Below, one piece after another: positions 25,461 through 49,658 of a stretch of 64,000 bases of DNA; the stretch's first letter is position 1, and each line of letters begins with the position of its first letter. The translations under genes were made by a program, and so were the position numbers. Source of the stretch: Actinotalea solisilvae. Lineage in GTDB: Bacteria; Actinomycetota; Actinomycetes; Actinomycetales; Cellulomonadaceae. The stretch spans positions 1 to 64,000 of the forward strand of contig NZ_JADDKQ010000021.1 of NCBI RefSeq assembly GCF_016464425.1, in the 5' to 3' direction. Below the pieces are notes generated by a model, which was not told the origin of the DNA, did no database searches, and saw nothing but the letters and a program-made list of their open reading frames with translations.

Positions 25461-25552
25461 GGCGCCTCCTGGTGCGTACCGGCGCCCCCAGGGGAGCGCG
25501 ACGGCACGGCACACGTCGGACACCCGACCCGCCGCAGCGGTGTGCCTCGCCC

Positions 25553-25650
25553 AGCTCCCTACGCCGGTGCGAACCGGGTCAGGTTCCACGGGTCAGTGGC
25601 TCGACCTTGCGGTCCGACCACACTCTCAGCGCGTCAGCGCTCCCCGGGGG
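25553..25650 (-). promoter_or_regulatory. TPP (THI-box) riboswitch
   Basis: Read leftward, the RNA starts GGGGAGCGCTGACGCGCTGA and carries CTGAGAG at about 25621-25627, then ACCCGTGGAACCTGACCCGG and GCGTAGGGAG at 25554-25563. These are the conserved halves of the thiamin pyrophosphate aptamer in the right order and spacing. It lies about 95 bases before ykoF. The 5' helix GGGGAGCGC may base-pair to form P1/P2. High TPP should shut off the ykoFEDC transporter operon, probably by hiding the ykoF ribosome site, since no obvious terminator follows. Confidence 0.96.
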
Positions 25651-25698
25651 CTTGTCGCGCCGACCCTACGCCCGGCCGGTGAGGAGTCAAGGCGGCGG

Positions 25699-31121: not shown

Positions 31122-32339
31122 TCAGGCTCCCACTCCCGGGTCGCCGACGGGACCGTCGAGCCGGCGCATGCGCTCGGCGAAGCCCTCACGGTCGCTGCCG
31201 AGCGCGGGGAACTTGTCGTGCCCGTGCAGGTAGAGGATCGCGGTGTTGAGCGTCGCGATGAGCGGGACCGCGAAGAGCGCGCCGACGATCCCCGCGGCGA
31301 GCGAGCCCGCCGCGACGCCGAGCAGCACCGCGACCGGGTGCAGCGACACGGCGTGGCCGAGCAGGAGCGGCTGGAGGACGTGGCTCTCGAGCTGCTGCAC
31401 GCCGAGCACGATCGCGAGCATGATGAGCGCCGTCCCGAGCCCCTGGTCCACGAGGGCGACGAGCACGGCGATGGCGCCCGTGGCGATCGCGCCGACGAAC
31501 GGGATGAAGCTCGCGAGGAACACGAGCACGGCGAGCGGCAGGGCGAGCGGGATGCCGAGGATCGCGGCGCCGACGCCGATGCCGATCGCGTCGATCGCGG
31601 CCACGAGGATCTGGGTGCGCGTGAACGCGGCGAGCGTCACGGCGCCGCGCCGCGAGGCCTCGTACGCGCGGACGCGCGAGCGCTCGGGCAGGAGCCGCAG
31701 CACCCAGGTCCAGATCTGGGCACCGTCCTTGAGGAAGAACAGCAGGCAGAACAGGGTCACGACGGCACCCGCGAGCACGTGGCCGAGCGTCGTCGTCACC
31801 GAGACGGCGCCCGAGACGAGCGAGCCGCTGTTGGCGCTCAGCTGCTCCTGCGCCTGCTCGAGGTAGCCGTCGATCTGGGCCTGGTCGAGCCCGAGCGGGC
31901 TCGCCGCGAGCTGGACGAGCAGCTCCTCGAAGCCGGCCTGCGCCTGCGTCCAGAGCTCGCCGAACCCCTGGGCGATCTCGCGTCCCGCGAGGGTCACGAG
32001 CCCGGCGACGAGCGCGAGGAGCGCGACGACCGTGATCCCGGCGGCGGCCCCGCGCGGCAGCCGCAGCCGCCGGACCATGAGGTCGACGACGGGCGAGAGC
32101 AGCACGGTGAGCAGGAGCGCCAGCACGACGGGGACCCACAGCACCTTCGTGTAGGCCATGACGAGCGCGAGCGCCGCCACGGCCACCAGCACGAGCAGGA
32201 GGCGCCACGAGAACGCGGCCGCGACCCGCACGGACCGGGGCACCGACTCGCTCGCGGGGCGGAGGTCGACCGGACCGGGGTCGAGCACCTCGTCGCGCGT
32301 GGTCGCGCCCGTCCCCTCGGTCACGCGCGGCGTGCTCAC
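31122..32339 (-). CDS. AI-2E/PerM family transporter
   Basis: A 405-residue integral membrane protein with about eight helices. A typical opening pair (LLLVLVAVAALALVMAYTKV; VPVVLALLLTVLLSPVVDLM) is followed by a large loop with QAQIDGYLEQAQEQL and then the PerM signature VFLASFIPFVGAIATGAIAV and LESHVLQPLLLGHAVSLHP. Family members have been proposed to export autoinducer-2 or act as Na+/H+ antiporters; the substrate is unknown here. GTG start at 32339 overlaps the metB stop, giving a metB-transporter-ilvA run. Confidence 0.92.
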   Translation of the reverse strand: MSTPRVTEGTGATTRDEVLDPGPVDLRPASESVPRSVRVAAAFSWRLLLVLVAVAALALVMAYTKVLWVPVVLALLLTVLLSPVVDLMVRRLRLPRGAAAGITVVALLALVAGLVTLAGREIAQGFGELWTQAQAGFEELLVQLAASPLGLDQAQIDGYLEQAQEQLSANSGSLVSGAVSVTTTLGHVLAGAVVTLFCLLFFLKDGAQIWTWVLRLLPERSRVRAYEASRRGAVTLAAFTRTQILVAAIDAIGIGVGAAILGIPLALPLAVLVFLASFIPFVGAIATGAIAVLVALVDQGLGTALIMLAIVLGVQQLESHVLQPLLLGHAVSLHPVAVLLGVAAGSLAAGIVGALFAVPLIATLNTAILYLHGHDKFPALGSDREGFAERMRRLDGPVGDPGVGA

Positions 32340-33541
32340 GCGAGGGCCTGGCCCAGGTCGGCCACGAGGTCGGCGACGTCCTCGATGCCCACGGACAGCC
32401 GGACGAGGTCGTCGGGCACCTCGAGCGCCGACCCGGCGACCGAGGCGTGCGTCATCTGGCCCGGGTGCTCGACGAGCGACTCGATGCCGCCGAGCGACTC
32501 GGCGAGCGTGAAGACCTTCGTGCGCGCGCACACGTCGAGCGCCTTCTCCCGGCTGCCGACCCGGAAGGAGACCATGCCGCCGAAGCCGCTCATCTGACGC
32601 GCGGCGAGCTCGTGGCCGGGGTGGTCCTCGAGCCCCGGGTAGATCACCTGCGTCACGGCCGAGTGCTCGCGCAGGAAGCGCGCGACGGTCATGGCGTTGG
32701 CGCAGTGCCGGTCCATCCGGACGGCGAGCGTCTTGAGCCCGCGCAGCGTGAGCCACGCGTCGAACGGGCCCGCGACCGCGCCGGACGCGTTCTGGTGGAA
32801 GCCGACCGCGTCCGCGACCGACGTCGTGCCCGTGGGGCCCTCGAGGTCGACGGGCAGCTGCGCGCCGTCGGCCACGACGAGCGCTCCCCCGACGACGTCG
32901 CTGTGCCCGCCGATGTACTTGGTCGTCGAGTGCACGACGACGTCCGCGCCGAGCGCGAGCGGCTGCTGCAGGTAGGGCGTCGCGAAGGTGTTGTCGACGA
33001 CCAGCACCGCGCCGGCGGCCCGCGCGAGCGCCGCGAGCGCGGCGATGTCGCTCACGCCGAGCAGCGGGTTGGTCGGCGTCTCGACCCACACGGCCTTGGT
33101 GCGGCCGGGCTCGATCGCCGCCGCGACGGCGTCGACGTCGGACAGGTCGACGGGCGTGTGGTCGACGCCCCACGGGCCGAACACGCGCGCGACGAGCCGG
33201 TAGGTGCCGCCGTAGGCGTCGTCGGGCACGACGACGTGGTCGCCCGGCCGCAGGACTGCGCGCAGCAGCGTGTCCTCCGCGGCGAGGCCCGACGAGAACG
33301 CGAAGGCCCGCGCGCCGCCCTCGACCGCGGCGAGCGCCTCCTCGAGCGCGGTGCGCGTCGGGTTGGCCGAGCGCGAGTACTCGTAGCCGTTCCGCAGGCC
33401 GCCGACGCCGTCCTGCTTGTAGGTCGAGACCTGGTAGATCGGGGGCACCACGGCGCCCGTCGTGGGGTCCGGCTCGGAGCCCGCGTGGATGGCGCGGGTC
33501 GAGAATCCGGAGGCGGTCCAGTCGTGGGGTGTGTCGCTCAC
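32336..33541 (-). CDS. metB: Cystathionine gamma-synthase / gamma-lyase
   Basis: A 401-residue PLP enzyme of the Cys/Met metabolism family. It has FSTRAIHAGSEPDPTTGAVV at the N-terminus, the SGLAAEDT helix, the PLP aspartate in VVDNTFATPYLQ and the PLP lysine in VVHSTTKYIGGHSDVVGG. Sequence does not separate synthase from lyase activity safely. Gene order near cystathionine beta-synthase and greA matches mycobacterial metB. GTG start at 33541; divergent from msrA. Confidence 0.94.
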   Translation of the reverse strand: MSDTPHDWTASGFSTRAIHAGSEPDPTTGAVVPPIYQVSTYKQDGVGGLRNGYEYSRSANPTRTALEEALAAVEGGARAFAFSSGLAAEDTLLRAVLRPGDHVVVPDDAYGGTYRLVARVFGPWGVDHTPVDLSDVDAVAAAIEPGRTKAVWVETPTNPLLGVSDIAALAALARAAGAVLVVDNTFATPYLQQPLALGADVVVHSTTKYIGGHSDVVGGALVVADGAQLPVDLEGPTGTTSVADAVGFHQNASGAVAGPFDAWLTLRGLKTLAVRMDRHCANAMTVARFLREHSAVTQVIYPGLEDHPGHELAARQMSGFGGMVSFRVGSREKALDVCARTKVFTLAESLGGIESLVEHPGQMTHASVAGSALEVPDDLVRLSVGIEDVADLVADLGQALA

Positions 33542-34290: not shown

Positions 34291-34911
34291 TCACGGGCCG
34301 CGCTCGTCGACGACCTCGACGGCGAGCGCGGCCCAGCGCGTGAGCACGTCGAGCTCGCGCGGCGCGGGCGCGAGGTGCGGGTCCGGCCGGAACGTCACCG
34401 TGGTCCCCGTCGTGCCGTCCGGCGCGACGGGGACCAGGTCGCTGACAGGCACGCCGCGGGCGTAGTCCTGCGTCCACGACCCCTCGCGACGGCGGTTGAG
34501 GTGCACGAGGCGCACGCTCAGCGCGCTCACCACCGACATGCCGCGGCGCGGGTGGCCGTCGGGCAGGAGAGGGCCGGGACCGCGGTCCTCCCCGGGACCG
34601 CCGAACCGCAGGTCGCGCGTCGCCATGACGGGCTTGCGGACGGCGTTCCCCGCCTCGACGCGCGTCTGGGTGCCGCGACCGTCGTCGGCGACGGCGACGG
34701 ACCCGTCCGTCCCGAGGACGACGCGGCAGCGGCCGCGGCGCGTCGGGTCGCCCTCGGCCCGCGCGCGGTCCTCGGCCTCCTCGGCCGCGTACGCGAGCAC
34801 CTCGAGCACGAGGTGCAGCACCCCGCCGGGAGCCCACGCGAAGGGCGCGCGCCGGACGGCCTCGAGGTGGGCGAGGTCGACCGTGCGGGACCAGTCGTGG
34901 GTGGCGCTCAC
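34291..34911 (-). CDS. Degenerate GyrB-like GHKL-fold protein
   Basis: A 206-residue protein that aligns by eye with the ATPase domain of type II topoisomerase subunit B. VLHLVLEVLAYAAEEA corresponds to GyrB's HHLVYEVVDNSVDEA: the catalytic Glu is kept (E37) but the Asp-Asn pair is replaced by A40-Y41. The VADDGRG motif (74-80) is retained. The later RRGMSVVSALS matches the GyrB VGVSVVNALS helix, but the ATP lid between is shortened. No transducer, TOPRIM or C-terminal domains follow. It is probably a nucleotide-binding or inactive offshoot. GTG start at 34911. It ends 7 bases from the msrA stop. Confidence 0.72.
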   Translation of the reverse strand: MSATHDWSRTVDLAHLEAVRRAPFAWAPGGVLHLVLEVLAYAAEEAEDRARAEGDPTRRGRCRVVLGTDGSVAVADDGRGTQTRVEAGNAVRKPVMATRDLRFGGPGEDRGPGPLLPDGHPRRGMSVVSALSVRLVHLNRRREGSWTQDYARGVPVSDLVPVAPDGTTGTTVTFRPDPHLAPAPRELDVLTRWAALAVEVVDERGP

Positions 34912-34949: not shown

Positions 34950-35060
34950 CCTCGTGGTCCTCGCGGACGACCCGAGGCCCGGCCCGATCTCGTCCTCGCG
35001 GGCGTCCCGGCCGTGCGGGCGCCGCTCCTACGTTCGGGTCACACCGACCGAGGAGGCAGC
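34950..35060 (+). promoter_or_regulatory. Promoter of ABC unit 1, with two 35-bp-spaced sites
   Basis: TCCTCGCGG begins at 34958 and again at 34993, 35 bases apart. A TACGTT -10 box lies at 35029-35034, 36 bases after the second site. GAGGAGG precedes the ATG at 35061. The same layout recurs before the other two transporter units. Confidence 0.7.
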
Positions 35061-36002
35061 ATGATCGAGGTAGCAGGGCTCACGAAGAGGTACGGGGACA
35101 AGACGGCCGTCGACGGCATCTCGTTCACCGTGCGACCGGGCATGGTCACCGGGTTCCTGGGCCCCAACGGAGCCGGGAAGTCCACCACGATGCGCATGAT
35201 CGTCGGGCTGGACCGGCCCACCGCGGGCACGGTCACGGTCAACGGCAGGTCCTACGCCCAGCACCGCGCGCCGCTCGGCGAGGTCGGCACGCTGCTCGAG
35301 GCCAAGGCCGTCCACACCGGCCGCTCCGCCCGCAACCACCTGCTCGCGCTCGCCGCGACCCACGGCATCGGCAGCCGCCGCGTCGACGAGGTCGTCGAGA
35401 TGACCGGCCTGCGCGGCGTGGCGCGCAAGCGGGCGGGCACGTTCTCGCTCGGCATGGGCCAACGCCTCGGCATCGCGGCCGCGCTCCTGGGCGACCCGCG
35501 CACGCTCATCCTCGACGAGCCCGTCAACGGCCTCGACCCCGAGGGCGTGCTCTGGGTCCGGACCCTGCTGCGGCACCTGGCCTCGGAGGGCCGCACGGTC
35601 TTCCTGTCCTCGCACCTCATGAGCGAGATGGCGCTCACCGCCGACCACCTCGTCGTGGTCGGGCGCGGGCGGCTCATCGCCGACGCGCCGGTCGCCGAGA
35701 TCGTCGCGCGCGCCCAGTCCGACGTCGTCCGGGTGCGCACGCCCCAGGCCGCGGTGCTCGAGCGGGCCCTCGCGCGGCCGGGCGTCACGGTGACCTCCGT
35801 CGCGCACGACGTGCTCGAGGTCGCGGGGAGCTCCCCGCAGGCGATCGCGGAGGCCGCGCTCGCGGCCGGCGTCGCTGTGCACGAGCTCGCCGCGGTCCAG
35901 GCGTCCCTCGAGGACGCGTACATGCGCCTCACCGCCGACGACGTCGAGTACCACTCGACGCCGGTCGCCCCCGAGCGCGTCCCGGCGGGGAGCGCGCGGT
36001 GA
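35061..36002 (+). CDS. ABC transporter ATP-binding protein (unit 1)
   Basis: A 313-residue ATPase that drives the permease encoded immediately downstream. Walker A is GPNGAGKST (residues 34-42) and Walker B LILDEP with D152-E153. The signature loop reads SLGMGQR in place of LSGGQ, as in many bacitracin/multidrug-type (DrrA-like) ATPases. A C-terminal domain of about 90 residues follows the H-loop (SSHLMSEMALTADH) and ends VEYHSTP. The protein is a close duplicate of the unit 2 ATPase at 37039. The stop overlaps the permease GTG. Substrate unknown. Confidence 0.95.
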   Translation: MIEVAGLTKRYGDKTAVDGISFTVRPGMVTGFLGPNGAGKSTTMRMIVGLDRPTAGTVTVNGRSYAQHRAPLGEVGTLLEAKAVHTGRSARNHLLALAATHGIGSRRVDEVVEMTGLRGVARKRAGTFSLGMGQRLGIAAALLGDPRTLILDEPVNGLDPEGVLWVRTLLRHLASEGRTVFLSSHLMSEMALTADHLVVVGRGRLIADAPVAEIVARAQSDVVRVRTPQAAVLERALARPGVTVTSVAHDVLEVAGSSPQAIAEAALAAGVAVHELAAVQASLEDAYMRLTADDVEYHSTPVAPERVPAGSAR

Positions 36003-36868
36003 GCGCCGCGACGGCCGTCCGGCCCGACGTCGCCCCGACCGCCCCGCGCACGCCCGTGCGCCCGGTCACCTTCGGCCGCCTCGTCGCGTCCGAGTGGATC
36101 AAGCTGCGCAGCCTGCGCTCGACGTGGTGGACGCTGGGCGTGGCCGCGCTCTTCGTCGTCGCCATGGGTGTGCTCCAGACCTGGGGCACCTCGACCGACC
36201 CGGCGAACTTCGGGTCGGGCGTCTCGCAGAGCGCCGCGACCTTCGTCACGGGCGGCTGGGTCGTCGCGCAGCTCGTCGTGTGCGTGCTCGGGGTCCTCGT
36301 GGTCACCGGCGAGTACGGCACCGGGCAGATCCGCTCGACCTTCACGGCCGAGCCGCGCCGCGTGCCCGTGCTCGGCGCGAAGCTCCTCGTCCTCGTCGGG
36401 ACGGTCGCCGCGGCGATGACGCTCGCCGTCGCCGTCGCGTGGGCCGGCTCCGCCGCCTGGTTCGACGACCTCGGCCTCACCGTCGACCTCACGAACCCGA
36501 GCGACCTGCGCGTCCTGCTCGGCACGCCGCTCTACCTCGCGACCGTCGCGGCGCTCGCGTTCGCCTTCGGCGCGCTCGTGCGGAACTCGGCCGCGGGCAT
36601 CGCGACCGTGCTCGGCCTGCTGCTCGTCGTCGAGAACGCGTTCTTCCTCATCCCGGGGCGGTTCGTCGAGCTCGCCGGGCCGTTCCTGCCCTCGCGGGCC
36701 GGCAGCCTCGTGCTCCAGGACGACGCGAGCCTCGAGGCCGAGGCGATGTGGGCCGAGATGTCGGACGTCGCCGCGCTCGGGCCGTGGCAGGGGTACGGCG
36801 TCCTCGTCGCCTGGGTCGCGGTGCTGCTCGCGGGCGCCGTCGTGCTGCTGCGCCGCCGGGACGCCTGA
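35999..36868 (+). CDS. ABC transporter permease (unit 1)
   Basis: A 289-residue membrane protein with about six helices. It opens with the cytoplasmic signature FGRLVASEWIKLRSLRSTWW and has VVTGEYGTGQIRSTFTAEP between helices 2 and 3, typical of ABC-2-type (YhaP/NatB-like) permeases. It ends GYGVLVAWVAVLLAGAVVLL then RRRDA. The GTG start overlaps the ATPase stop by 4 bases. It is paralogous to the permeases at 37977 and 41139. Confidence 0.93.
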   Translation: MSAATAVRPDVAPTAPRTPVRPVTFGRLVASEWIKLRSLRSTWWTLGVAALFVVAMGVLQTWGTSTDPANFGSGVSQSAATFVTGGWVVAQLVVCVLGVLVVTGEYGTGQIRSTFTAEPRRVPVLGAKLLVLVGTVAAAMTLAVAVAWAGSAAWFDDLGLTVDLTNPSDLRVLLGTPLYLATVAALAFAFGALVRNSAAGIATVLGLLLVVENAFFLIPGRFVELAGPFLPSRAGSLVLQDDASLEAEAMWAEMSDVAALGPWQGYGVLVAWVAVLLAGAVVLLRRRDA

Positions 36869-36929
36869 CGGTCCGGCGGCGGGACCACCGCCGTCCGGCC
36901 CCGGCGCTGCCCGCCGGACGGCGGAGCGC

Positions 36930-37038
36930 ATCATCCTCACGGCGTAGCGGGAGGGTCGGGAGATCTCCGTCTCCCGACCCTCCCGCCGCGTGCGGCGCCC
37001 CCTCTACGTTCGAGGGGTACCACCGACGAGGAGGAACG
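36930..37038 (+). promoter_or_regulatory. Promoter of ABC unit 2, diverged 35-bp-spaced sites
   Basis: TCCTCACGG at 36934 and a degenerate GTCTCCCGAC at 36969 occupy the same positions as the unit 1 and unit 3 sites. TACGTT at 37005-37010 is again 36 bases beyond the second site. GAGGAGG precedes the ATG at 37039. Confidence 0.6.
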
Positions 37039-37980
37039 ATGATCGAGGCCACAGGTCTCACGAAGAGGTACGGGCAGAAGACCGCCGTCGACGGCGTGTC
37101 CTTCACCGTCCGCCCGGGCATGGTGACCGGGTTCCTGGGCCCCAACGGGGCCGGCAAGTCCACCACCATGCGCATGATCGTGGGGCTGGACCGCCCCACC
37201 GCCGGCACCGTCACGGTCAACGGCAAGCCGTACGCCGAGCACCGCGCGCCGCTCGGCGAGGTCGGGACGCTGCTCGAGGCGAAGGCCGTCCACACGGGCC
37301 GCTCGGCCCGCAACCACCTGCTCGCCCTCGCGGCGACCCACGGCATCGGGCGGCGCCGCGTCGACGAGGTCATCGAGATGACCGGCCTGGGCGCGGTCGC
37401 CGGCAAGCGCGTCGGCGGCTTCTCGCTCGGCATGGGCCAGCGGCTCGGCATCGCCGCCGCGATGCTCGGCGACCCGCGCACGCTCATCCTCGACGAGCCG
37501 GTCAACGGCCTCGACCCCGAGGGCGTCCTGTGGGTGCGCACGCTGCTGCGGCACCTCGCCGCCGAGGGCCGCACGGTCTTCCTGTCCTCGCACCTCATGA
37601 GCGAGATGGCGCTGACCGCGGACCACATCGTCGTCATCGGGCGCGGACGGATCATCGCCGACGCCCCGGTCACGGACGTCGTCGCGGGGGCCGCGAGCGC
37701 GGGCACCGTGCGCGTCCGCACGCCGCACGCCGACGCGCTCCAGCACGCGCTCGCCGGGCCGGGCATCACGACGACCCCGCTCGAGCAGGGCCTCTTCGAG
37801 GTCGTGGGCAGCACCGCGGCCGCGATCGGCGAAGCCGCCGCGGCCGCCGGCGTCGTGCTCCACGAGCTCACCCCCGTCCACGGCTCCCTCGAGGACGCCT
37901 ACATGCAGCTCACGGCCGAGGAGGTCGAGTACCACTCGACGCCCGTGCCCGCGACGACCACCGAAGGAGTCCTGCGATGA
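37039..37980 (+). CDS. ABC transporter ATP-binding protein (unit 2)
   Basis: A 313-residue ATPase of the same length as the unit 1 ATPase and nearly identical to it over the first 220 residues (same GPNGAGKST Walker A at 34-42, SLGMGQR signature, LILDEP Walker B). The C-terminal 90 residues have diverged (VRTPHADALQHALAGPGITT), which may alter partner choice. It overlaps its permease by an ATGA. A recent local duplication is the simplest origin. Confidence 0.95.
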   Translation: MIEATGLTKRYGQKTAVDGVSFTVRPGMVTGFLGPNGAGKSTTMRMIVGLDRPTAGTVTVNGKPYAEHRAPLGEVGTLLEAKAVHTGRSARNHLLALAATHGIGRRRVDEVIEMTGLGAVAGKRVGGFSLGMGQRLGIAAAMLGDPRTLILDEPVNGLDPEGVLWVRTLLRHLAAEGRTVFLSSHLMSEMALTADHIVVIGRGRIIADAPVTDVVAGAASAGTVRVRTPHADALQHALAGPGITTTPLEQGLFEVVGSTAAAIGEAAAAAGVVLHELTPVHGSLEDAYMQLTAEEVEYHSTPVPATTTEGVLR

Positions 37981-38837
37981 CCGCCGTCGCCTCCCCCGCG
38001 CTGCCGGCACGGCCGCGCGTCCAGGTCCGCCCCTCGAGCTTCGGCCGCCTCGTCGCCGCCGAGTGGATCAAGTTCCGCACGCTGCGCTCGACGTGGTGGA
38101 CGCTCGGCGTCGGCGCGGCGCTCATGGTCGCGCTCGCCGTCCTGCAGACGTGGGGCACGACGACGATCGCCGAGGAGGCCGGCGGCTTCCCCGACCTGAG
38201 CGGCGCCGCGTACATCACGGGCGGCGCGTTCCTCGGCCAGCTCGCGTTCGTCGTCCTCGGCGTCCTCGCCATCACCGGCGAGTACGGCACCGGCATGATC
38301 CGCTCGACGTTCGCCGCCGCCCCGCGTCGCCTGCCCGTGCTGTGGGCCAAGCTCGTCGTGATGTTCGCGGCGGTCTTCGTCGTCTCGCTCGTGGCGGTCG
38401 CCGTCGCGTGGCTCGGCAGCATGGCGTGGTTCGACGAGCTCGGCCTCTCGGTCGACCTGTCGAGCAGCGAGGACGTGCGCATCATCCTGGGCACCGCCCT
38501 CTACCTCGCGACGACGACGGCGCTCGCCTACGCGATCGGCGCGCTCGTGCGGGTCTCGGCCGCCGGCATCGCGATCGTGCTCGGGCTCCTGCTCGTCGTG
38601 GAGATCGCGTTCGCGGCCATCCCGTGGCGCCCGCTCCAGGTGCTCGCGCCCTTCCTGCCGTCGAGCGCGGGCGGCCGGCTCATGATGGACGACGCGTCGA
38701 TCGAGTCGAGCCGCGCGTTCGCCGAGGCGAGCGACGTCGTGTCGCTCACCCCCTGGCAGGGCTACGGCGTCCTCGTGGCGTGGGTGGCCGTGCTGCTCGC
38801 GGTGGCGGCCGTGCTCCTGCGTCGGAGGGACGCCTGA
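37977..38837 (+). CDS. ABC transporter permease (unit 2)
   Basis: A 286-residue ABC-2-type permease with about six helices. The same frame marks appear as in unit 1: FGRLVAAEWIKFRTLRSTWW, AITGEYGTGMIRSTFAAAP and the GYGVLVAWVAVLLAVAAVLL last helix followed by RRRDA. ATG start at 37977 overlaps the ATPase stop. The stop itself overlaps a CTG that appears to start the next gene, a histidine kinase. Confidence 0.93.
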   Translation: MTAVASPALPARPRVQVRPSSFGRLVAAEWIKFRTLRSTWWTLGVGAALMVALAVLQTWGTTTIAEEAGGFPDLSGAAYITGGAFLGQLAFVVLGVLAITGEYGTGMIRSTFAAAPRRLPVLWAKLVVMFAAVFVVSLVAVAVAWLGSMAWFDELGLSVDLSSSEDVRIILGTALYLATTTALAYAIGALVRVSAAGIAIVLGLLLVVEIAFAAIPWRPLQVLAPFLPSSAGGRLMMDDASIESSRAFAEASDVVSLTPWQGYGVLVAWVAVLLAVAAVLLRRRDA

Positions 38838-40201
38838 GCACGTCCGCCGCGGCGCCGGCGCCCCCCGGGGCGCCGGCGCCGTTCACCGAGCTGTCGGCGC
38901 GTCGGCTGGGGCCGGTGCGCCGCTTCGTCGTGCGGCACCCCGTGGTCGTCGACGTGCTCGTCGTCCTGTGGTTCGTCGTCGTCGCGCTGCTCGGCCCGCT
39001 CATCACCGCGGACGGCATGCGCTACGACTCCGTCGCCGCGAACGACGGGCTGGCCCGGGCCGTGCCCTGGTGGGCGGGCGCCGTGACGATCGCGGGCGTC
39101 GTCGCGCTCAGCCGGCGTCGCGCGCGCCCGCTCGCGGTGACCGCGACCATGACCGGTCTCGCCGTCGTCTCCCTCGCAGGCACCGGCCAGGTCGGCGGCC
39201 TCGACCTCGGCATCGCCTTCGGGACCTACGCCGTCGCGGCGACGTACCGGCCGACCGTCACCTGGCGCACCGCGGGGGCGGCGGTCGCGGTCGTCGCGGC
39301 CGCCGGGCTGCTGCTGCCGCTGCCGCGCCGCGCGGCCTACCTCGTGGACGGCTGGGAGCCGCCCGAGGACCTCGGGGGCACGCTCACGGACCCCGTCGCG
39401 CGCGGCGAGTGGGCCGGCTCGACGCTCGCCCTCGTCGCCGTGCTGCTGCTGGCCATCGCGATCGGGACGAGCGTGCGCAACCGCCGGCTCCACCTGGCCG
39501 ACCTCGTCGACCGCGCGAACGCGCTCGCGCGCGACCGCGAGCGGCAGGTCCAGCTCGCGCGCGCCGCCGAGCGGGCCACGATCGCCCGCGAGATGCACGA
39601 CGTCGTCGCGCACAGCCTGTCCGTGATGATCGCGCTCGGCGACGGCGCCAACGCGGCCCTCGACCGGGCGCCCGACCGCTCGCTCGCCGCGCTCGCCGAG
39701 CTCTCGGCGACCGGGCGCACCGCGCTGGGCGACATCCGCCGGATCTTCGGGGTCCTCGACGACGGGGCCGGCACCAGCGCGCCCGCCGACCCGTCGCCGG
39801 AGGGCCTCGACCTCACCGGGCTCGTCGAGCGCTTCCGCGCCGCCGGGCTGCCGGTCCGCGCCACCGGGCTCGGCGACCCCGGGCTCGCGCAGGCGGGGAC
39901 GACCCTGCGCCTCGCGGTGCACCGCATCGCGCAGGAGGCGCTCACCAACGCGCTCCGGTACGCACCGGGCACCGCCGGCGTCGAGCTCGCGCTGCGGCGC
40001 ACCGAGGGCGCCCTCGAGATCGAGGTCGTGGACCGCGGGCCCGCCGCCCCCGTCCCCGCCAGCGAGGGCTCGGGCCGCGGCCTCGTCGGCATGAGCGAGC
40101 GGGCCGCGGTGCACGGCGGGACCGTGGAGGCCGGCCCGTTCGCGGGCGGGTGGCGGGTCCGCGCGCGCCTGCCCTGGCCGCAGGACGCCGACGCCGGCTG
40201 A
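38834..40201 (+). CDS. Sensor histidine kinase 1 (NarL/DesK-type, HisKA_3)
   Basis: A 455-residue membrane kinase. About five helices form the sensor part (40-215). The dimerisation box is RATIAREMHDVVAHSLSVMI with phosphoacceptor His near residue 255, then a HATPase_c domain with EALTNALRYAPG and GSGRGLVGMSERA. It shares the opening FTELSARRLGPVRRF with kinase 2, and no ATG/GTG/TTG precedes that conserved stretch in frame. The start is therefore probably the CTG at 38834, which overlaps the permease stop (CTGA) and has GGAGGG 4 bases upstream. GTG at 38915 is the alternative. It lacks its own response regulator gene. Confidence 0.88.
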   Translation: MSTSAAAPAPPGAPAPFTELSARRLGPVRRFVVRHPVVVDVLVVLWFVVVALLGPLITADGMRYDSVAANDGLARAVPWWAGAVTIAGVVALSRRRARPLAVTATMTGLAVVSLAGTGQVGGLDLGIAFGTYAVAATYRPTVTWRTAGAAVAVVAAAGLLLPLPRRAAYLVDGWEPPEDLGGTLTDPVARGEWAGSTLALVAVLLLAIAIGTSVRNRRLHLADLVDRANALARDRERQVQLARAAERATIAREMHDVVAHSLSVMIALGDGANAALDRAPDRSLAALAELSATGRTALGDIRRIFGVLDDGAGTSAPADPSPEGLDLTGLVERFRAAGLPVRATGLGDPGLAQAGTTLRLAVHRIAQEALTNALRYAPGTAGVELALRRTEGALEIEVVDRGPAAPVPASEGSGRGLVGMSERAAVHGGTVEAGPFAGGWRVRARLPWPQDADAG

Positions 40202-40207
40202 GGCGCG

Positions 40208-40618
40208 TCAGCCCAGTCGCTCGAGCCGGTCGAGCGAGAGCTCCCAGCCCTCGGCGTGCCCGCTCGCGTCGTCCGCGTCCGCGAGGCCGGAGTGCACCAG
40301 GACGAGGCGCGTGCCGCCGTCGTCCGCGGGCGCGAGGTCGACGCGGACCTGCGAGGCCGGGTCCTCCGACGTCGTCCACCGCCAGGTGAACGCGACGAGC
40401 CGGGCGGGCTCGAGCGCCGTGTACTCGCCCTCGGCGACGTAGCGTCCCTCGCCCATGTCCACGCGGTACCGGCCGCCGACGACGGCGTCGGCGGTCACGG
40501 CGAGCGCGAGGTCGGGGTTCGGGCAGAACCAGCGGCCCAGCAGCCCGGGGTCGGTCCAGGCGGCGTAGACCCGCTCGGGCGGGGCGGCGAGGGTGCGTTC
40601 GACGCGGATCTCGGTCAT
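40208..40618 (-). CDS. SRPBCC/AHSA1 domain protein
   Basis: A 136-residue START-like protein (IRVERTLAAPPERVYAAWTD, then LGRWFCPNP) of the AHSA1/activator-of-Hsp90-like family, which folds as a hydrophobic-ligand cavity. It closes with the usual GWELSLDRLERL helix. The ATG at 40618 overlaps the ArsR stop (ATGA). This ArsR-AHSA1 gene pair is widespread in bacteria; the ligand is unknown. Confidence 0.92.
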   Translation of the reverse strand: MTEIRVERTLAAPPERVYAAWTDPGLLGRWFCPNPDLALAVTADAVVGGRYRVDMGEGRYVAEGEYTALEPARLVAFTWRWTTSEDPASQVRVDLAPADDGGTRLVLVHSGLADADDASGHAEGWELSLDRLERLG

Positions 40619-40962
40619 CGGTCGTCCTGCCTCTCGTCGTCGAGCAGCGCCTCGAGGCGGTCGAGGCTCGCCGTCCAGAAGGAGCGCATGTCGCCCAGCC
40701 AGGCGTGCGCCTCGGCGAGGGCGGCGGGGCGCAGCGCGCACTCGACCGTGCGGCCCACGCGGCGGCGCGTCACCAGCCCGGCGTCCACGAGCACGGCCAC
40801 GTGCTTGGTGAACGCGGGCAGGGACATCGCGTGCTCGGCCGCGAGGACGCCGACCGTCGCAGGCCCGTCCGCGAGCCGACGGACGACGGTCCGGCGGGTG
40901 GGGTCTCCCAGGGCGCGGAAGGTCCGGCTGAGGGTCGCGCCGGTCGGTTCCACGAGCGACAC
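40615..40962 (-). CDS. ArsR-family transcriptional regulator
   Basis: A 115-residue winged-helix repressor. SRTFRALGDPTRRTVVRRLA opens the fold. The recognition helix is about MSLPAFTKHVAVLVDAGLV (46-64) and the wing TRRRVGRTVECALRP. No CxC or other clear metal-binding cysteine set is present, so it is not a classical metal sensor. GTG start at 40962 overlaps a perfect palindrome that is probably its own operator. Confidence 0.93.
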   Translation of the reverse strand: MSLVEPTGATLSRTFRALGDPTRRTVVRRLADGPATVGVLAAEHAMSLPAFTKHVAVLVDAGLVTRRRVGRTVECALRPAALAEAHAWLGDMRSFWTASLDRLEALLDDERQDDR

Positions 40963-40979
40963 TTAACCACATGGTTAAG
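40962..40979. promoter_or_regulatory. ArsR operator palindrome
   Basis: CTTAACCACATGGTTAAG is a perfect 8-bp inverted repeat with a 2-base centre. Its left edge touches the arsR start codon (40960-40962). It is also the only AT-rich patch in the region, so it stands out sharply. Binding would block arsR-AHSA1 transcription. It lies 42 bases left of the unit 3 sites, so crosstalk is possible but not shown. Confidence 0.82.
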
Positions 40980-41014
40980 CGATGTCGCCAGCCCGGGCCA
41001 CCGCGAGGACGACG

Positions 41015-41138
41015 TCGTCATCCTCGCGGGGTAGCCGCCGCGCGCCGCGATCTCGTCCTCGCGGGCGTCCCCGCCCCGTCGCGCCGTCCGTAGCGTCGGT
41101 GCCGACCGCACGACCGCTCGTCCCGCAGGAGATCCGCC
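41015..41138 (+). promoter_or_regulatory. Promoter of ABC unit 3 (lone permease), two 35-bp-spaced sites
   Basis: TCCTCGCGGG begins at 41021 and again at 41056, exactly 35 bases apart. The -10-like TAGCGT at 41091-41096 lies 35 bases after the second site. GATCTCGTCCTCGCGGGCGT is identical here (41049) and before unit 1 (34986). CAGGAG precedes the ATG at 41139. Confidence 0.7.
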
Positions 41139-41990
41139 ATGACCACGCTCGCCGTCCCCGCACCCGCCCTGGTGGCACGGCCCCGCACCCCGGTGCAGCC
41201 GCCGACGACGACCCGGCTCGTGCGGTCCGAGTGGATCAAGCTGCGCTCCCTGCGCTCGACCTGGTGGGCGCTCGCCGCGAGCGTCGCCGTCGTCGTGCTC
41301 CTGGCGGTGAGCCGGGCCTCGAGCATCGCGCGGGTCCCCGAGGCGATCGGCGCGCCGAGCATGGTGGGCGCCGTCTACGTGACGTCGGGCGCCGCGATCG
41401 TGCAGCTCGTCCTGTGCGTGCTGGCCGTCCTCGCCGTCACCGGCGAGTACCGGACCGGGCAGATCCGGTCGAGCCTCGTGGCCGTCCCGACCCGGCTGCC
41501 CGTGCTCGGCGCCAAGCTGGCCGTGGTCGTCGCCACGGTCCTCGTGACGTCGGTGGTCGCCGTCGGGCTCGCGTGGGCGGCGAGCGCCTCGTGGCTCGAC
41601 GTGTCGCAGATGCCGGTCGACCTGGGTGACCCGGACGAGCTGCGGATCCTGCTCGGGACCCCGCTGTACCTCGCGACCGTCGCCGCGCTCGCGTTCGGCA
41701 TCGGCGCGCTCGTGCGGAGCTCGGCCGGCGGCATCGCCGTCGTCGTCGGCCTGCTGCTGGTCGTCGAGAACGCCGTCGCGCTCCTCCCGTGGGCGCCGCT
41801 CCAGGCCGTGAGCCCGTACCTCCCCGCGACGGCCGGCAACCGCCTGCTCACCTCCGACCTCGTCGGGTCGGTCACGACGACGTCGGCGAGCACCACGCTC
41901 TCCCCGTGGCAGGGCTACGGCGTGCTCGTGGCGTGGGTCGTCGTCGTCCTCGCCGCCGCCGCGGTGCTGCTGCGCCGGCGGGACGCCTGA
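41139..41990 (+). CDS. ABC transporter permease without partner ATPase (unit 3)
   Basis: A 283-residue ABC-2-type permease, a third paralogue of the permeases at 35999 and 37977 (TTRLVRSEWIKLRSLRSTWW; AVTGEYRTGQIRSSLVAVP; GYGVLVAWVVVVLAAAAVLL then RRRDA). No ATPase gene accompanies it. It probably borrows the ATPase of unit 1 or 2, whose N-terminal halves are nearly identical and whose promoters share the same sites. Start ATG at 41139. Confidence 0.92.
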   Translation: MTTLAVPAPALVARPRTPVQPPTTTRLVRSEWIKLRSLRSTWWALAASVAVVVLLAVSRASSIARVPEAIGAPSMVGAVYVTSGAAIVQLVLCVLAVLAVTGEYRTGQIRSSLVAVPTRLPVLGAKLAVVVATVLVTSVVAVGLAWAASASWLDVSQMPVDLGDPDELRILLGTPLYLATVAALAFGIGALVRSSAGGIAVVVGLLLVVENAVALLPWAPLQAVSPYLPATAGNRLLTSDLVGSVTTTSASTTLSPWQGYGVLVAWVVVVLAAAAVLLRRRDA

Positions 41991-42051
41991 GCGCCGTGCG
42001 CGGCCGCGGCCCGCGGTGCGCGGCACCCGCCCGACCTGGGAGAGTGCTGCC

Positions 42052-43428
42052 GTGGGCCGCCAGCGCGTGACGGACGGGGAGCCGCCCGCCGGGGCGCCGC
42101 TGTTCACCGAGCTGTCGGCGCGGCGCCTCGGGCCGGTCCGACGCTTCTTCGTCCGGCGGCCCGGCGTCATGGACGCCCTCGTCATGGCCGTGTTCTGCGG
42201 CACGGGCCTGCTCCTGGCCGGCGGCGCCCGCAGCATGTACCCGCTCGACGAGGTCCTGGGCCGGGTCGCCGCCGAGCGCATGGAGCTGTGGGGCGTCGGG
42301 CTGGTCGCCGCGGGCACGGTCGCGCTCGCGTGGCGCCGGCGCCGGCCCGTGACGGTCGCGGTCGTCATGGGCCTGCTCGGCGCGACGGCGCTCGTGACGA
42401 GCGGCGCGACGAACGGCTACGAGCTGGGCGTCCCCTTCGCCCTCTACGCCGTGGCCGCCGCGCGGCCGGCGCTCGTGACGTGGTGGACGTTCGGCGGCAC
42501 CGTCGTCGCCCTGCTCCTCGGCGGCATGACGGAGCTCGCGATCCAGGTCGGCGCGATGACGCTCGGCTACTCGACCACCCCCGTCCCCGGCGCCGACGGG
42601 GCCGTGGAGGTGGTCGTCGAGGCCACGGGCGGCCAGGTCTGGGCGTACCACGCGGCGTCCGTCGTCCTGCCCGCGCTGCTCGCCGTCGCCATCGGGACGA
42701 GCGTGCGGAACCGGCGCCTGCACGTGGCGGACCTCGTCGACCGGGCCAACGCCCTGGCGCGCGACCGCGACCAGCAGGCGCAGCTGGCCCGGGCCGCCGA
42801 GCGGGCCCGGATCGCGCGCGAGATGCACGACGTCGTCGCGCACAGCCTCACGGCGATGATCGCGCTCGGCGACGGCGCGGCCTCGAGCGTCCGCGACGCG
42901 CCCGAGCGGTCCCGGACCGCGCTCGACGAGCTCTCGGCGACCGGCCGGGCCGCCCTCGCGGACATGCGTCGCCTCCTGGGCGTGCTGCACGGCGACGACG
43001 CCGACGACGGCGCGGTGCCGTTCGAGCCGCAGCCGACCGCGCCCGACCTGGGCGTGCTCGTCGAGCGGTTCCGCGCCGCCGGCCTGCCGGTGCGGGCGAC
43101 CGGCCTCGGCGACGACGTCCTCCCTGCGGACCCCAGCCTTCAGCTCGCGGTGGTCCGCATCGTCGAGGAGGCGCTCGGCAACGCGCAGCGTCACGCGCAT
43201 GGCACGCTCGGGGTCGAGCTGGCGGTCCGCCGGCTCCCGGGCGGCGTGGAGGTCGACGTCGTCGACCAGGGCACGGGCGTGCCGGCCCGGGCGCGCGAGG
43301 GGACGAGGCGCGGGCTCATCGGGATGGACGAGCGGGCCGCGGTGTACGGCGGGACGGTCGAGGCCGGCCCGCACGGGAACGGGTGGCGGGTGCACGCCTG
43401 GCTGCCCTGGGACGAGGGGACGAGATGA
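42052..43428 (+). CDS. Sensor histidine kinase 2 (NarL/DesK-type, HisKA_3)
   Basis: A 458-residue kinase, full-length paralogue of kinase 1. Sensor helices lie at about 35-220; RARIAREMHDVVAHSLTAMI carries the phosphoacceptor His near residue 259, followed by HATPase_c (EALGNAQRHAHG, GTRRGLIGMDERA). The sensor half has diverged more than the catalytic half, with a longer extracytoplasmic loop (STTPVPGADGAVEVVVEATG). The GTG at 42052 follows GGGAGAG by 7 bases. Stop overlaps the response regulator start, so the two form a two-component system. Confidence 0.94.
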   Translation: MGRQRVTDGEPPAGAPLFTELSARRLGPVRRFFVRRPGVMDALVMAVFCGTGLLLAGGARSMYPLDEVLGRVAAERMELWGVGLVAAGTVALAWRRRRPVTVAVVMGLLGATALVTSGATNGYELGVPFALYAVAAARPALVTWWTFGGTVVALLLGGMTELAIQVGAMTLGYSTTPVPGADGAVEVVVEATGGQVWAYHAASVVLPALLAVAIGTSVRNRRLHVADLVDRANALARDRDQQAQLARAAERARIAREMHDVVAHSLTAMIALGDGAASSVRDAPERSRTALDELSATGRAALADMRRLLGVLHGDDADDGAVPFEPQPTAPDLGVLVERFRAAGLPVRATGLGDDVLPADPSLQLAVVRIVEEALGNAQRHAHGTLGVELAVRRLPGGVEVDVVDQGTGVPARAREGTRRGLIGMDERAAVYGGTVEAGPHGNGWRVHAWLPWDEGTR

Positions 43429-44102
43429 CGACGAGGATCCTGCTGGTCGACGACCAGGCACTGCTGCGCATGGGCTTCCGGCTCGTGCTCGAGGCCGAGG
43501 ACGACCTGGAGGTCGTGGGCGAGGCGGGTGACGGCCGCGCGGCGGTCGACCAGGTCGCGGCGCTGCGGCCCGACGTCGTGCTCATGGACGTGCGGATGCC
43601 GAACGTCAACGGGATCGAGGCGACCGAACGCATCGCCGCCGCCCACCCGGAGACGCGCGTGCTCATCCTCACCACGTTCGACCTCGACGAGTACGCGTTC
43701 GCGGCGCTGCGCGCGGGGGCGAGCGGCTTCCTCCTCAAGGACGCCCGGCCCGCCGAGCTCGTCGCGGCCGTGCGGACCGTGGCGTCGGGCGACGCCGTCG
43801 TCTCGCCGCGCGTGACGCGGCGCATGCTCGAGCTCTTCTCGGGGCAGCTGCCCGCGCCGGGCGACCCCGAGCCGGACGGGACGGACCCGCGCCTCGCCGA
43901 GCTCACCCCGCGCGAGCTCGAGGTGCTGCGCTGCGTCGCCGACGGGCAGTCCAACGCGGAGGTGGCCGAGCGGCTGTTCCTCTCGGAGGCGACCGTGAAG
44001 ACGCACGTCGGCCGCGTGCTCGCGAAGCTGGGCGTGCGCGACCGGGTCCAGGCCGTCGTCCTCGCCTACGAGACGGGGCTCGTGCGCACCTCCGCGGGCT
44101 GA
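43425..44102 (+). CDS. NarL/LuxR-family response regulator
   Basis: A 225-residue regulator. The receiver domain has the acidic pocket D9-D10, phosphorylation site D55 (VVLMDVRMPN) and conserved Lys in GFLLKDARP. The C-terminal LuxR-type HTH (about 155-220) reads LTPRELEVLRCVADGQSNAE then ATVKTHVGRVLAKLGVRDRV. ATG at 43425 overlaps the kinase 2 stop. It is the only response regulator in the cluster and the natural candidate for binding the paired sites before the three ABC units. Confidence 0.96.
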   Translation: MTTRILLVDDQALLRMGFRLVLEAEDDLEVVGEAGDGRAAVDQVAALRPDVVLMDVRMPNVNGIEATERIAAAHPETRVLILTTFDLDEYAFAALRAGASGFLLKDARPAELVAAVRTVASGDAVVSPRVTRRMLELFSGQLPAPGDPEPDGTDPRLAELTPRELEVLRCVADGQSNAEVAERLFLSEATVKTHVGRVLAKLGVRDRVQAVVLAYETGLVRTSAG

Positions 44103-47691: not shown

Positions 47692-49098
47692 TCAGCGGGC
47701 GAGGAAACCGAGCAGGTCGTGCCGCGTGACGACGCCGACCGGGTCGCCGTCCTCGACGACGAGGAGCGCGTCGGCGTCCTGGAGCGCCTTGCGGGCCGCG
47801 TCGACGTCCTCGCCCACGCCGATGAGGGGCAGGGGCGCGGCCATGTGCCGGTCGACGCGGTCCGCGAGGTTCGCGCGGCCGCTGAAGACGGCGTCGAGCA
47901 GCTCGCGCTCGCTCACGGCGCCCGCGACCTCGCCCGACTTCACGGGCGGCTCGGCCTTGACCACGGGCATCTGGGAGACGCCGTACTCGTGCAGGATCTC
48001 GATCGCGTCGCGCACCGTGTCGCTCGGGTGCGCGTGCACGAGCGCGGGGATCTCGCCCGACTTGGTGCGCAGGACGTCGCCGACGACCTGCCCGCCGTCC
48101 GCGTGCAGGAACCCGTAGGACCGCATCCAGGAGTCGTTGAAGATCTTCGAGAGGTAGCCGCGGCCGCCGTCGGGCAGCAGGACGACGATGACGGCCCGCG
48201 CGGCCGCCTCGGGGTCCTCGTCCTGGAGGCGCTGCGCGAGCCGGAGGGCGGCGACGACGGCCATGCCGCACGAGCCGCCGACCAGGAGGCCCTCCTCGCG
48301 CGCGAGGCGGCGCGTCATCTCGAACGAGTCGGCGTCGGTCACCGCGATGATCTCGTCGGGCACGGCCGGGTCGTACGCCGTCGGCCAGAAGTCCTCGCCG
48401 ACGCCCTCGACGAGGTAGGGGCGGCCGTCGCCGCCGGAGTAGACCGAGCCGGCCGGGTCGGCGCCGACGACGTGCACGCGCCCGCCCGCGGCGGCGTCGC
48501 GGTCGGCGCTGGCGTCCTTGAGGAAGCGGCCGGTCCCCGTGATGGTGCCGCCCGTCCCCACGCCCGTGACGAAGTGCGTGACTCGACCGTCGGTGTCGGC
48601 CCAGATCTCGGGGCCGGTCGACTCGTAGTGGCTCGCGGGACCGTTCTGGTTGGCGTACTGGTTCGGCTTCCAGGCGCCCTCGATCTCGCGGACCAGGCGG
48701 TCGGAGACGGAGTAGTAGGAGTCCGGGTGGTCGGGCGCCACGGCGGTCGGCGTGACGACGACGCGCGCGCCGTAGGCCGCGAGGACGTCCCGCTTGTCCT
48801 GCGAGACCTTGTCCGGGCACACGAAGACGCAGTGGTAGCCCTTCTTCTGCGCGACCAGAGCGAGGCCCACGCCCGTATTGCCGCTCGTGGGCTCGACGAT
48901 CGTGCCGCCGGGCCGGAGCTCGCCGGACGCCTCGGCGGCCTCGACCATCTTCAGGGCGATCCGGTCCTTCACGGAGCCGCCCGGGTTGAGGTACTCGACC
49001 TTCGCCAGGACGGTGGCCGCGAGGCCGTCGGTGACGCTGCTCAGCCGCACGAGCGGCGTGCCGCCGACGAGGTCCGAGATGTGCTCGGCGTACTTCAC
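47692..49098 (-). CDS. cbs: Cystathionine beta-synthase
   Basis: A 468-residue PLP enzyme joining serine and homocysteine to cystathionine. The PLP lysine is K44 in LNPGGSVKDRIAL; EPTSGNTGVGLALVAQKKGY binds the substrate carboxylate and GVGTGGTITGTGRF the phosphate. Two CBS domains (about 340-468) end the chain and could sense adenosyl ligands. No heme-binding N-terminal extension. GTG at 49098 overlaps the stop of the upstream membrane-protein gene (GTGA). With metB at 32.3 kb it completes reverse transsulfuration. Confidence 0.96.
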   Translation of the reverse strand: MKYAEHISDLVGGTPLVRLSSVTDGLAATVLAKVEYLNPGGSVKDRIALKMVEAAEASGELRPGGTIVEPTSGNTGVGLALVAQKKGYHCVFVCPDKVSQDKRDVLAAYGARVVVTPTAVAPDHPDSYYSVSDRLVREIEGAWKPNQYANQNGPASHYESTGPEIWADTDGRVTHFVTGVGTGGTITGTGRFLKDASADRDAAAGGRVHVVGADPAGSVYSGGDGRPYLVEGVGEDFWPTAYDPAVPDEIIAVTDADSFEMTRRLAREEGLLVGGSCGMAVVAALRLAQRLQDEDPEAAARAVIVVLLPDGGRGYLSKIFNDSWMRSYGFLHADGGQVVGDVLRTKSGEIPALVHAHPSDTVRDAIEILHEYGVSQMPVVKAEPPVKSGEVAGAVSERELLDAVFSGRANLADRVDRHMAAPLPLIGVGEDVDAARKALQDADALLVVEDGDPVGVVTRHDLLGFLAR

Positions 49099-49658
49099 GT
49101 GAGATCCACTCCTGACAGGACGAACACGCCGATGAGCGTGACGATGGCGACGGCCCCGGTGCAGGACCACACGAGGCTGGGACGGGTCGCGGCCCACGGG
49201 CCGAAGTAGCGGCCGGCCAGGCCGCCGAGCCCCGTGGTCGAGGCCATGTAGAGGGTGCCCGCGAGCGCCGCGGCGGGCGCCGGCTCGGGGCCGCCCGCGG
49301 CGGCCGCCGCCTGGATGAGCAGCGAGAAGACGGGGAAGCCCCACAGGGCGCCGGCCGCGAAGCCGACGCCGAAGAAGACGAGCGACGCCTTGCGCTGGGG
49401 CATCCCGCGCGTCGCGCGCGCGGCCGCCCACCCGACCGCGGCCCCGGCCGTGAGCAGGAACGCCACGGTGACCGGGGCCGCGACCAGGAGCAGGCCGGGG
49501 GTCCGCAGGATGAGCGCCATGAACATCTCGGCGACGAGCATCACCGCGGCGGCGATCGCCAGGCCGGCCGCGAGGACCCGCCAGCCGGGCACCGGGACGT
49601 CGGCGACGTCCGGCAGCTCGTTCGCGTCCGCCAGGCCGCCGTGGGCGGCCCGCGTCAC
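49095..49658 (-). CDS. Hypothetical multi-pass membrane protein
   Basis: A 187-residue protein with about five hydrophobic helices (VLAAGLAIAAAVMLVAEMFM, LLLVAAPVTVAFLLTAGAAV, VFFGVGFAAGALWGFPVFSL and two near the C-terminus). I do not recognise its family. It sits between and overlaps both a Bax-inhibitor-1 gene and cbs by 4 bases each, so it is part of a three-gene operon. GTG start at 49658. Confidence 0.7.
   Translation of the reverse strand: MTRAAHGGLADANELPDVADVPVPGWRVLAAGLAIAAAVMLVAEMFMALILRTPGLLLVAAPVTVAFLLTAGAAVGWAAARATRGMPQRKASLVFFGVGFAAGALWGFPVFSLLIQAAAAAGGPEPAPAAALAGTLYMASTTGLGGLAGRYFGPWAATRPSLVWSCTGAVAIVTLIGVFVLSGVDLT

Follow-up and report, generated by a model that had tools for sequence, protein, structure and literature searches.

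The stretch analysed here, the first 64,000 nucleotides of contig NZ_JADDKQ010000021.1 of Actinotalea solisilvae (hereafter the window), carries between positions 34,950 and 44,102 a block that encodes two ABC ATPase-permease pairs (A1-B1 and A2-B2), a third permease without an ATPase of its own (B3), two DesK-type sensor kinases (K1 and K2) and one NarL/LuxR-type response regulator (RR). Sequence comparison indicates that the block grew locally out of a common type of operon with the order A-B-K-R (ATPase, permease, kinase, regulator), an expansion seen in three species, the window, Actinotalea ferrariae and the genome G008, with units reshuffled or lost. We consider it likely that the operon was duplicated in place, that both kinases feed the single RR, that RR drives all three units and that B3 uses the ATPases A1/A2. 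The reading is backed by gene content, synteny, trees, a deletion scar in G008 and a composite operator.

Gene content of the locus

Neighbouring genes overlap by four bases at A1/B1, A2/B2, B2/K1 and K2/RR, so the block is read as three units, A1-B1, A2-B2-K1 and B3-K2-RR. The sequence-only reading had described two ATPase-permease pairs, a lone third permease, two paralogous kinases and one regulator, and gene reading and Pfam agree with this inventory. Pfam ABC2_membrane families match B1, B2 and B3; HisKA_3 and HATPase_c exceed their gathering scores in K1 and K2, both of which carry the H-box HDVVAHSL; and RR combines a receiver, in which Asp55 was assigned by sequence reading, with a LuxR/GerE DNA-binding domain, as DesK/NarL-type systems require. 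The probable CTG start of K1 lies in a CTGA overlap with the stop codon of B2 and is preceded by GGAGG; the alternative in-frame ATG/GTG/TTG starts are 54 bp upstream, within B2, or 81 bp downstream, where the conserved opening would be trimmed.

Within the window, the paralogues share 81% (A1/A2), 63% (B1/B2), 56% (B1/B3), 56% (B2/B3) and 54% (K1/K2) identity. The nearest solved structures to RR are VraR (5hev), DevR, NarL and DesR, and to the kinase core DesK. No NCBIfam model was above its cut-off among all matches of K1 and K2 or among the best 25 of 105 matches of RR (top MadR, 175 of 300 bits), and the locus is therefore not filed under any named DesK/LiaS/VraS-type system.

A predicted shared operator in front of three units

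That the three units are co-regulated had only been asserted in the sequence-only reading; it is now supported by a predicted composite operator whose model ranks precisely their three promoters first in the window. In one-unit loci of the genus, the predicted operator upstream of A consists of box1 (TCATCC-n7/8-GTA type), box2 and a TAGGTT/TACGTT element; counted from where box1 begins, box2 lies 29 bp and the -10 element 73-74 bp further on. A three-block model was trained on 11 of the 12 one-unit loci (ten one-kinase loci and G033, described below) and on none from the window. Over the ~128,000 positions of the window, units 3, 2 and 1 took the first three ranks (48.6, 44.6 and 34.6 bits), followed by 6.1 bits, a 1-bp shift of unit 1, and 5.1 bits, the best non-overlapping score. 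The box1 to -10 distance of 73-74 bp holds in 11/12 one-unit loci and in all eight units of the three expanded loci. Over 19 promoters, the information per column is 1.36, 0.88 and 1.01 bits in the three conserved blocks but 0.24 and 0.25 bits in the two spacers; because the boxes are information-rich and the spacers near background, this argues for selection rather than mere copying. Between the window units, 25, 17 and 16 of 26 bases agree in box2 and 10-15 of 18 in box1, and in the spacers 4-7 of 11 and 5-8 of 16.

The window sites gave a strict paired-box pattern that has two matches in the 4.3-Mb genome of A. solisilvae, at units 1 and 3, and none when reversed as a control. The box1 consensus with up to two mismatches is found at eight places in this genome (three in the control), the top two in the locus, and exact box1 at six places in 19 genus genomes, five of them at this locus. 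The sixth (L145, on contig C257 of G139) has around it no match to the locus or flank query proteins and was taken as chance, without gene calling there. In 1.56 Mb of other DNA, 22 sites score at least 18, of which ten lie upstream of a gene matched by an A or B query, with L146 an eleventh by coordinates; at a score of at least 22, five of seven sites are so placed, L043 and L145 being the others. Five misses, one of them in L105, share one common motif, which in the other four (L014, L017, L111 and L119) falls inside the regulator gene; the window has it too, at 43662. A loose box1 precedes A in 18 of 70 cases of the wider family versus 0.04 expected from shuffles; all 18 are from genus or same-family genomes apart from Clavibacter (L013) and L036, so that box1, judged from these sequences, is not common to the whole wider family. 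The single half-site TSRTCCTCRCGG was rejected as operator evidence, with 133 occurrences genome-wide versus 26 in the reversed control; only the paired boxes and the composite are specific.

Distribution and history of the expansion

Kinase matches and permease matches each place the family in 18 of 19 genus genomes, that of A. solisilvae included; the genome missed by the kinase search, G154, is 83% complete. Besides the window, 15 genus loci were laid out: 12 A-B-K-R loci with one kinase (two ending at contig ends), one A-B-K-K-R locus (G033) and two expanded loci, in G139 (locus L119), taken as Actinotalea ferrariae (L009), and in G008 (locus L120). In G130 and G125 the family lies on broken contigs, outside these layouts. 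The locus stands downstream of msrA in 13 of the 15, two of them with a gap of 0.7-0.85 kb; of the two exceptions, one contig is cut there and G107 shows no msrA. The block had been called acquired or locally expanded. Local expansion is borne out, with multi-unit loci seen in the window, A. ferrariae and G008, whereas its acquired or accessory nature is not, given the presence of the family in 18/19 genomes and its place downstream of msrA in 13/15 loci. Searched against viral contigs with K1 as the single query, 25 stretches fit the pattern and none was a confirmed relative.

The three expanded loci belong together. Their RR proteins are 92-94% identical, and the three K1 (100/100), the three K2 (100/100) and the three RR (99) each form a group in the trees. 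Open frames are kept for all eight genes in the window and A. ferrariae and for six in G008, and in each of the 14 comparisons the third codon position is the most variable. A1 and B1 of the window join the A-B pair that adjoins K1 in A. ferrariae and G008 (98 and 99). A2 joins a free-standing A. ferrariae ATPase (94), whose permease is the closest to B2, at a fork that the tree does not resolve. Since an A1-B1-type pair adjoins K1 in the other two species, K1 has probably changed transporter neighbours. In G008, laid out as A1-B1-K1-B3-K2-R, the 3' remnant of a permease gene (L120, 5971-6109) remains between the intact B1 and K1. Of its last 79 bases, 68 match the end of the window B2, compared with 62 for B3 and 58 for B1, and the stretch aligns across the junction of B2 end and K1 start in the window (77% over 151 bp, E 1.8e-28). 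This remnant beside K1 suggests that an A2B2-like unit was lost from G008; the gene order of the window is probably nearer the ancestor.

The otherwise single-copy locus of G033 has tandem overlapping kinase genes before one regulator (L121, 6991-9515). We considered these as orthologues of K1 and K2 and rejected this, as the trees place both outside the K1/K2 clade and approximately unbiased (AU) tests of four G033-K1/K2 pairings (p 0.008, 0.097, 0.129 and 0.073) reject one. Because only one of four is rejected, the independence of this two-kinase state, the second in the genus, is likely but not proven. Nor is a tree rejected in which the six K1 and K2 rows stand as their own clade (AU p 0.066), so K2-like single units may lie inside or beside the duplication.

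Two kinases and a single regulator

After duplication, sensor kinases are expected either to be lost or to become insulated from one another, with a regulator apiece. In this locus, two are kept beside one regulator. That the kinases are alike in their opening and catalytic halves and divergent in their sensor halves was confirmed by block-wise alignment counts: of every 40 alignment columns, K1 and K2 match in 21 of the first 40, in 7-16 in each of four blocks spanning the membrane sensor part, and in 23-31 in the six full blocks that follow. The N-terminal sensor region has three hydropathy peaks in K1 and four in K2, and DUF7134 is found in K2 only. The dimerization and histidine phosphotransfer (DHp) segments of K1 and K2 are 71% identical, versus 21-60% for seven other kinases of the same genome in an ungapped comparison. 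These seven were readable by pattern among ten stretches around other regulator genes; in L149, L152 and L157 the pattern found no DHp, although a kinase is present in L157.

In all three expanded loci the ATP lid reads GT[RPA]RG in K2 and GSGRG in K1, leaving K2 short of one lid glycine, and the N-box neighbourhood of K2 is changed from APGT to AHGT. The idea that K2 is a dead pseudokinase is not borne out: the lid glycine is also gone in L011 and L115, where one kinase is visible, and the catalytic His and N-box Asn are kept. Because these one-kinase loci share such a change, it does not show K2 to be inactive.

Proposed mechanism

We propose that the ancestral A-B-K-R operon, genus-wide and downstream of msrA, was duplicated in place, and that A1B1, A2B2, B3 (its ATPase lost), K1 and K2 were retained while the regulator was kept in one copy only. 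K1 and K2 would each detect a different membrane or extracellular signal through their diverged membrane halves, and both would phosphorylate RR at Asp55. Phosphorylated RR would bind box1 and box2, with box2, directly before the -35 region, as its main site of action, and activate all three promoters; since unit 3 encodes RR itself, the loop would be autoregulated. By analogy with LnrLMN, the system probably exports a membrane-active natural product or protects against one.

B3 would pair with A1 or A2, the sole ATPases of the locus, in line with a segment conserved in B1, B2 and B3 (TGEY-TG-IRS), which we take to have a coupling role. Units of the form A-B3-K2-R occur in Sanguibacter suarezii, Clavibacter, G183, G190 and G196, and related units in Kineococcus (contig cut), G178 and G184. 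They form one clade with K1 and K2 (13 rows, 100/98; 14 rows, 92, after six skipped rows were added), on which basis B3 probably derives from a unit with its own ATPase; the A-B3-K2-R units of other genera likewise suggest that B3 borrows an ATPase in the window locus.

A further idea goes beyond this scheme. Given the lid and N-box changes of K2, K1 and K2 may be specialised against each other, possibly as heterodimers or as a kinase/phosphatase pair, with RR as a two-input gate on a dose-setting array of three promoters; selection would then maintain an expansion in which sensors and outputs, but not the regulator, were duplicated. We regard this as speculative and rather improbable.

A single genus thus offers single-copy, apparently separate tandem-kinase (G033) and multi-unit (three species) states at the same chromosomal place, with a readable operator. 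This forms a compact natural experiment in two respects, how one regulator comes to serve paralogous sensors and how a permease left without its ATPase persists by borrowing another, and the operator model gives a direct route to the targets of this exporter-regulator family in other actinobacteria.

Alternative explanations

Several observations weigh against shared control by one regulator. Box1 of unit 1 is weak on its own, at rank 60 with the first model and 6.2 bits with the corrected one, and in the composite score of that unit it gives 7.7 bits compared with 13.3 for box2 and 13.5 for the -10 block. The block borders were set on the same 19 promoters with rows anchored on box1, which favours box1. 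Unit 2 does not fit the strict paired-box pattern, its diverged box2, in which only 16-17 of 26 bases agree with units 1 and 3, being a weak point. The pattern is also found in neither of the other expanded genomes (0/2, G139 and G008), for which reason we read it as the window form of a wider operator. The likeness of the promoters could be due in part to common descent, and a stronger version of this, in which it reflects duplication only and the paralogous units have come under different regulators, could appeal to the drifted box1 of unit 1 and the diverged box2 of unit 2. We hold it to be very unlikely, as the spacers are close to background (0.24-0.25 bits per column) whereas the boxes and their spacing are constant, in units of other species too, and as the next-best regulator of the genome, on contig C31, is only 62% identical to RR and has its own kinase adjacent. 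The DHp segment of that kinase is 56-60% like those of K1 and K2, so that crosstalk outside the locus is possible. This second pair also bears on whether only K2 activates RR, with K1 serving another regulator or else damping RR, chiefly by dephosphorylation, in the way suggested for AbrC1 of Streptomyces coelicolor. K2 overlaps RR by ATGA, whereas K1 ends 3.2 kb before it, and one of the AbrC kinases was proposed, in passages of PMC4428217, to act mainly via phosphatase activity. Such a division is nevertheless unlikely in our view: the DHp segment of K1 is nearer to that of K2 than to any of the seven other readable kinases, the C31 regulator is already provided for, and K1 keeps its GSGRG lid glycines and its place beside a single RR in 3/3 expanded loci.

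Rather than a third transporter, B3 could be a partner that shares a single ATPase dimer with B1 (or B2) in a heteromeric permease. In LnrLMN, a single ATPase likewise serves two permeases, LnrM and LnrN; G008 has one ATPase for two permeases, and the Occultella loci L020 and L027 read A-B-B-K-R. Against this, B3-type permeases stand in A-B3-K2-R units with one permease detected (Sanguibacter suarezii, Clavibacter, G190 and G196), and in G183 a distant A-B pair lies directly downstream of such a unit; we think a heteromeric role possible but doubtful, and prefer B3 as a third transporter. That the whole block is one horizontally acquired accessory island is highly improbable and largely excluded by synteny, the family being present in 18/19 genus genomes and downstream of msrA in 13/15 laid-out loci, and the window RR grouping with the RR proteins of the other two expanded loci in the genus. 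In favour of the island, Sanguibacter, Kineococcus, Clavibacter and some same-family genomes contain relatives of the B3-K2-R unit, so parts of the family do move between lineages.

Comparison with known systems

What is new here is the combination of parts, its operator and its history; exporter control by DesK/NarL-type systems and two-kinase/one-regulator arrangements were already known. As in the DesK-DesR and LiaS/VraS-LiaR/VraR families, the locus combines HisKA_3 kinases with a LuxR-type regulator. The rag cluster, ragABKR (SCO4075-4072), includes an ABC transporter, and its order A-B-K-R is that of the unexpanded relatives here. RagK/RagR (SCO4073/72) of Streptomyces coelicolor, described in passages of PMC9739842 as a kinase and a NarL-type regulator within that cluster, differs in being single copy and linked to aerial development.

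AbrC1/AbrC2/AbrC3 of S. coelicolor (SCO4598/97/96) also combines two kinases and one NarL-type regulator at one locus (passages in PMC4428217 and PMC9739842), and both kinases were concluded to be able to activate the regulator (passage in PMC4428217). Likened by description, the window, L119 and L120 show this set of two kinases with a single regulator as well. The AbrC kinases are co-transcribed and the regulator separately (passages in PMC4428217 and PMC9739842), whereas here a permease gene precedes each kinase gene, K2 and the regulator gene overlap, and 1.85 kb, holding B3 and two opposite-strand genes, separates K1 from K2; the locus would thus work like AbrC without being filed as a member, since the AbrC gene arrangement is absent. 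The passages on AbrC in these papers name no transporter units. LnrJK-LnrLMN (YfiJK-YfiLMN) of Bacillus subtilis is a two-component system that induces an adjacent ABC transporter, encoded by lnrLMN, which confers resistance to linearmycins, a type of polyene (passages in PMC7472640). It is likewise comparable by description, as ABC transporter genes adjoin a HisKA_3 kinase and a LuxR-type regulator here, and differs in having a single kinase, a single regulator and a single transporter operon. Among the papers listed by a literature search, subscription papers not covered, no title or abstract opening describes this locus or an expanded A-B-K-R array, which is weak evidence of absence.

Features of the block and its flanks

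Table 1. Genes and predicted promoter elements of the expanded locus, in window coordinates
Feature	Position	Strand	Details
Unit 1 operator/promoter	34954-35034	+	box1 34954-34971 (degenerate); box2 34983-35008; -10-like TACGTT 35029-35034
A1, ABC ATPase, 313 aa	35061-36002	+	PF00005 (ABC_tran), E 2.9e-27
B1, ABC-2 permease, 289 aa	35999-36868	+	GTG start; PF12730; six hydropathy peaks
Unit 2 operator/promoter	36930-37010	+	box1 36930-36947; box2 (diverged) 36959-36984; -10-like TACGTT 37005-37010
A2, ABC ATPase, 313 aa	37039-37980	+	assigned by 81% identity to A1, no Pfam scan of A2 itself
B2, ABC-2 permease, 286 aa	37977-38837	+	PF12679
K1, DesK-type sensor kinase, 455 aa	38834-40201	+	probable CTG start; HisKA_3, E 2.5e-14
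AHSA1/SRPBCC protein, inserted cassette	40208-40618	-	PF08327; same pair in 3 other genus loci
ArsR-type regulator, inserted cassette	40615-40962	-	PF12840, PF01022; palindrome TTAACCACATGGTTAA directly upstream
Unit 3 operator/promoter	41017-41096	+	box1 41017-41034; box2 41046-41071; -10-like TAGCGT 41091-41096
B3, ABC-2 permease without own ATPase, 283 aa	41139-41990	+	PF12679
K2, DesK-type sensor kinase, 458 aa	42052-43428	+	GTG start; HisKA_3, E 2.8e-17; PF23539 (DUF7134 sensor)
RR, NarL/LuxR-type response regulator, 225 aa	43425-44102	+	PF00072 (Response_reg), PF00196 (GerE)

The opposite-strand ArsR-AHSA1 pair, absent from the sequence-only reading, lies at differing points inside the locus in four genus genomes (window, L119, L126 and L127). 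In the two loci examined, the window and L009/L119, the pair has a TTAAC-type palindrome in front of it. The block had been placed between metB and cbs, and both assignments hold: metB at 32336-33541 on the minus strand, to its left (NF005871), and cbs within 47692-49773 on the minus strand, to its right (TIGR01137), are above cut-off. Also between these two genes are msrA on the left and, on the right, genes for an FAD oxidase, an FKBP and an acetyl-xylan-esterase-like protein. An open reading frame of 206 aa at 34291-34911 (minus strand) resembles the N-terminal ATPase region of GyrB/ParE (NCBIfam E 4e-12, far below cut-off); it has no Pfam match and no match at E 1e-8 in 20 distinct related loci. 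Elsewhere in the window, a thiamine pyrophosphate (TPP) riboswitch is predicted at 25537-25656 on the minus strand (57.8 bits, above the Rfam gathering score).

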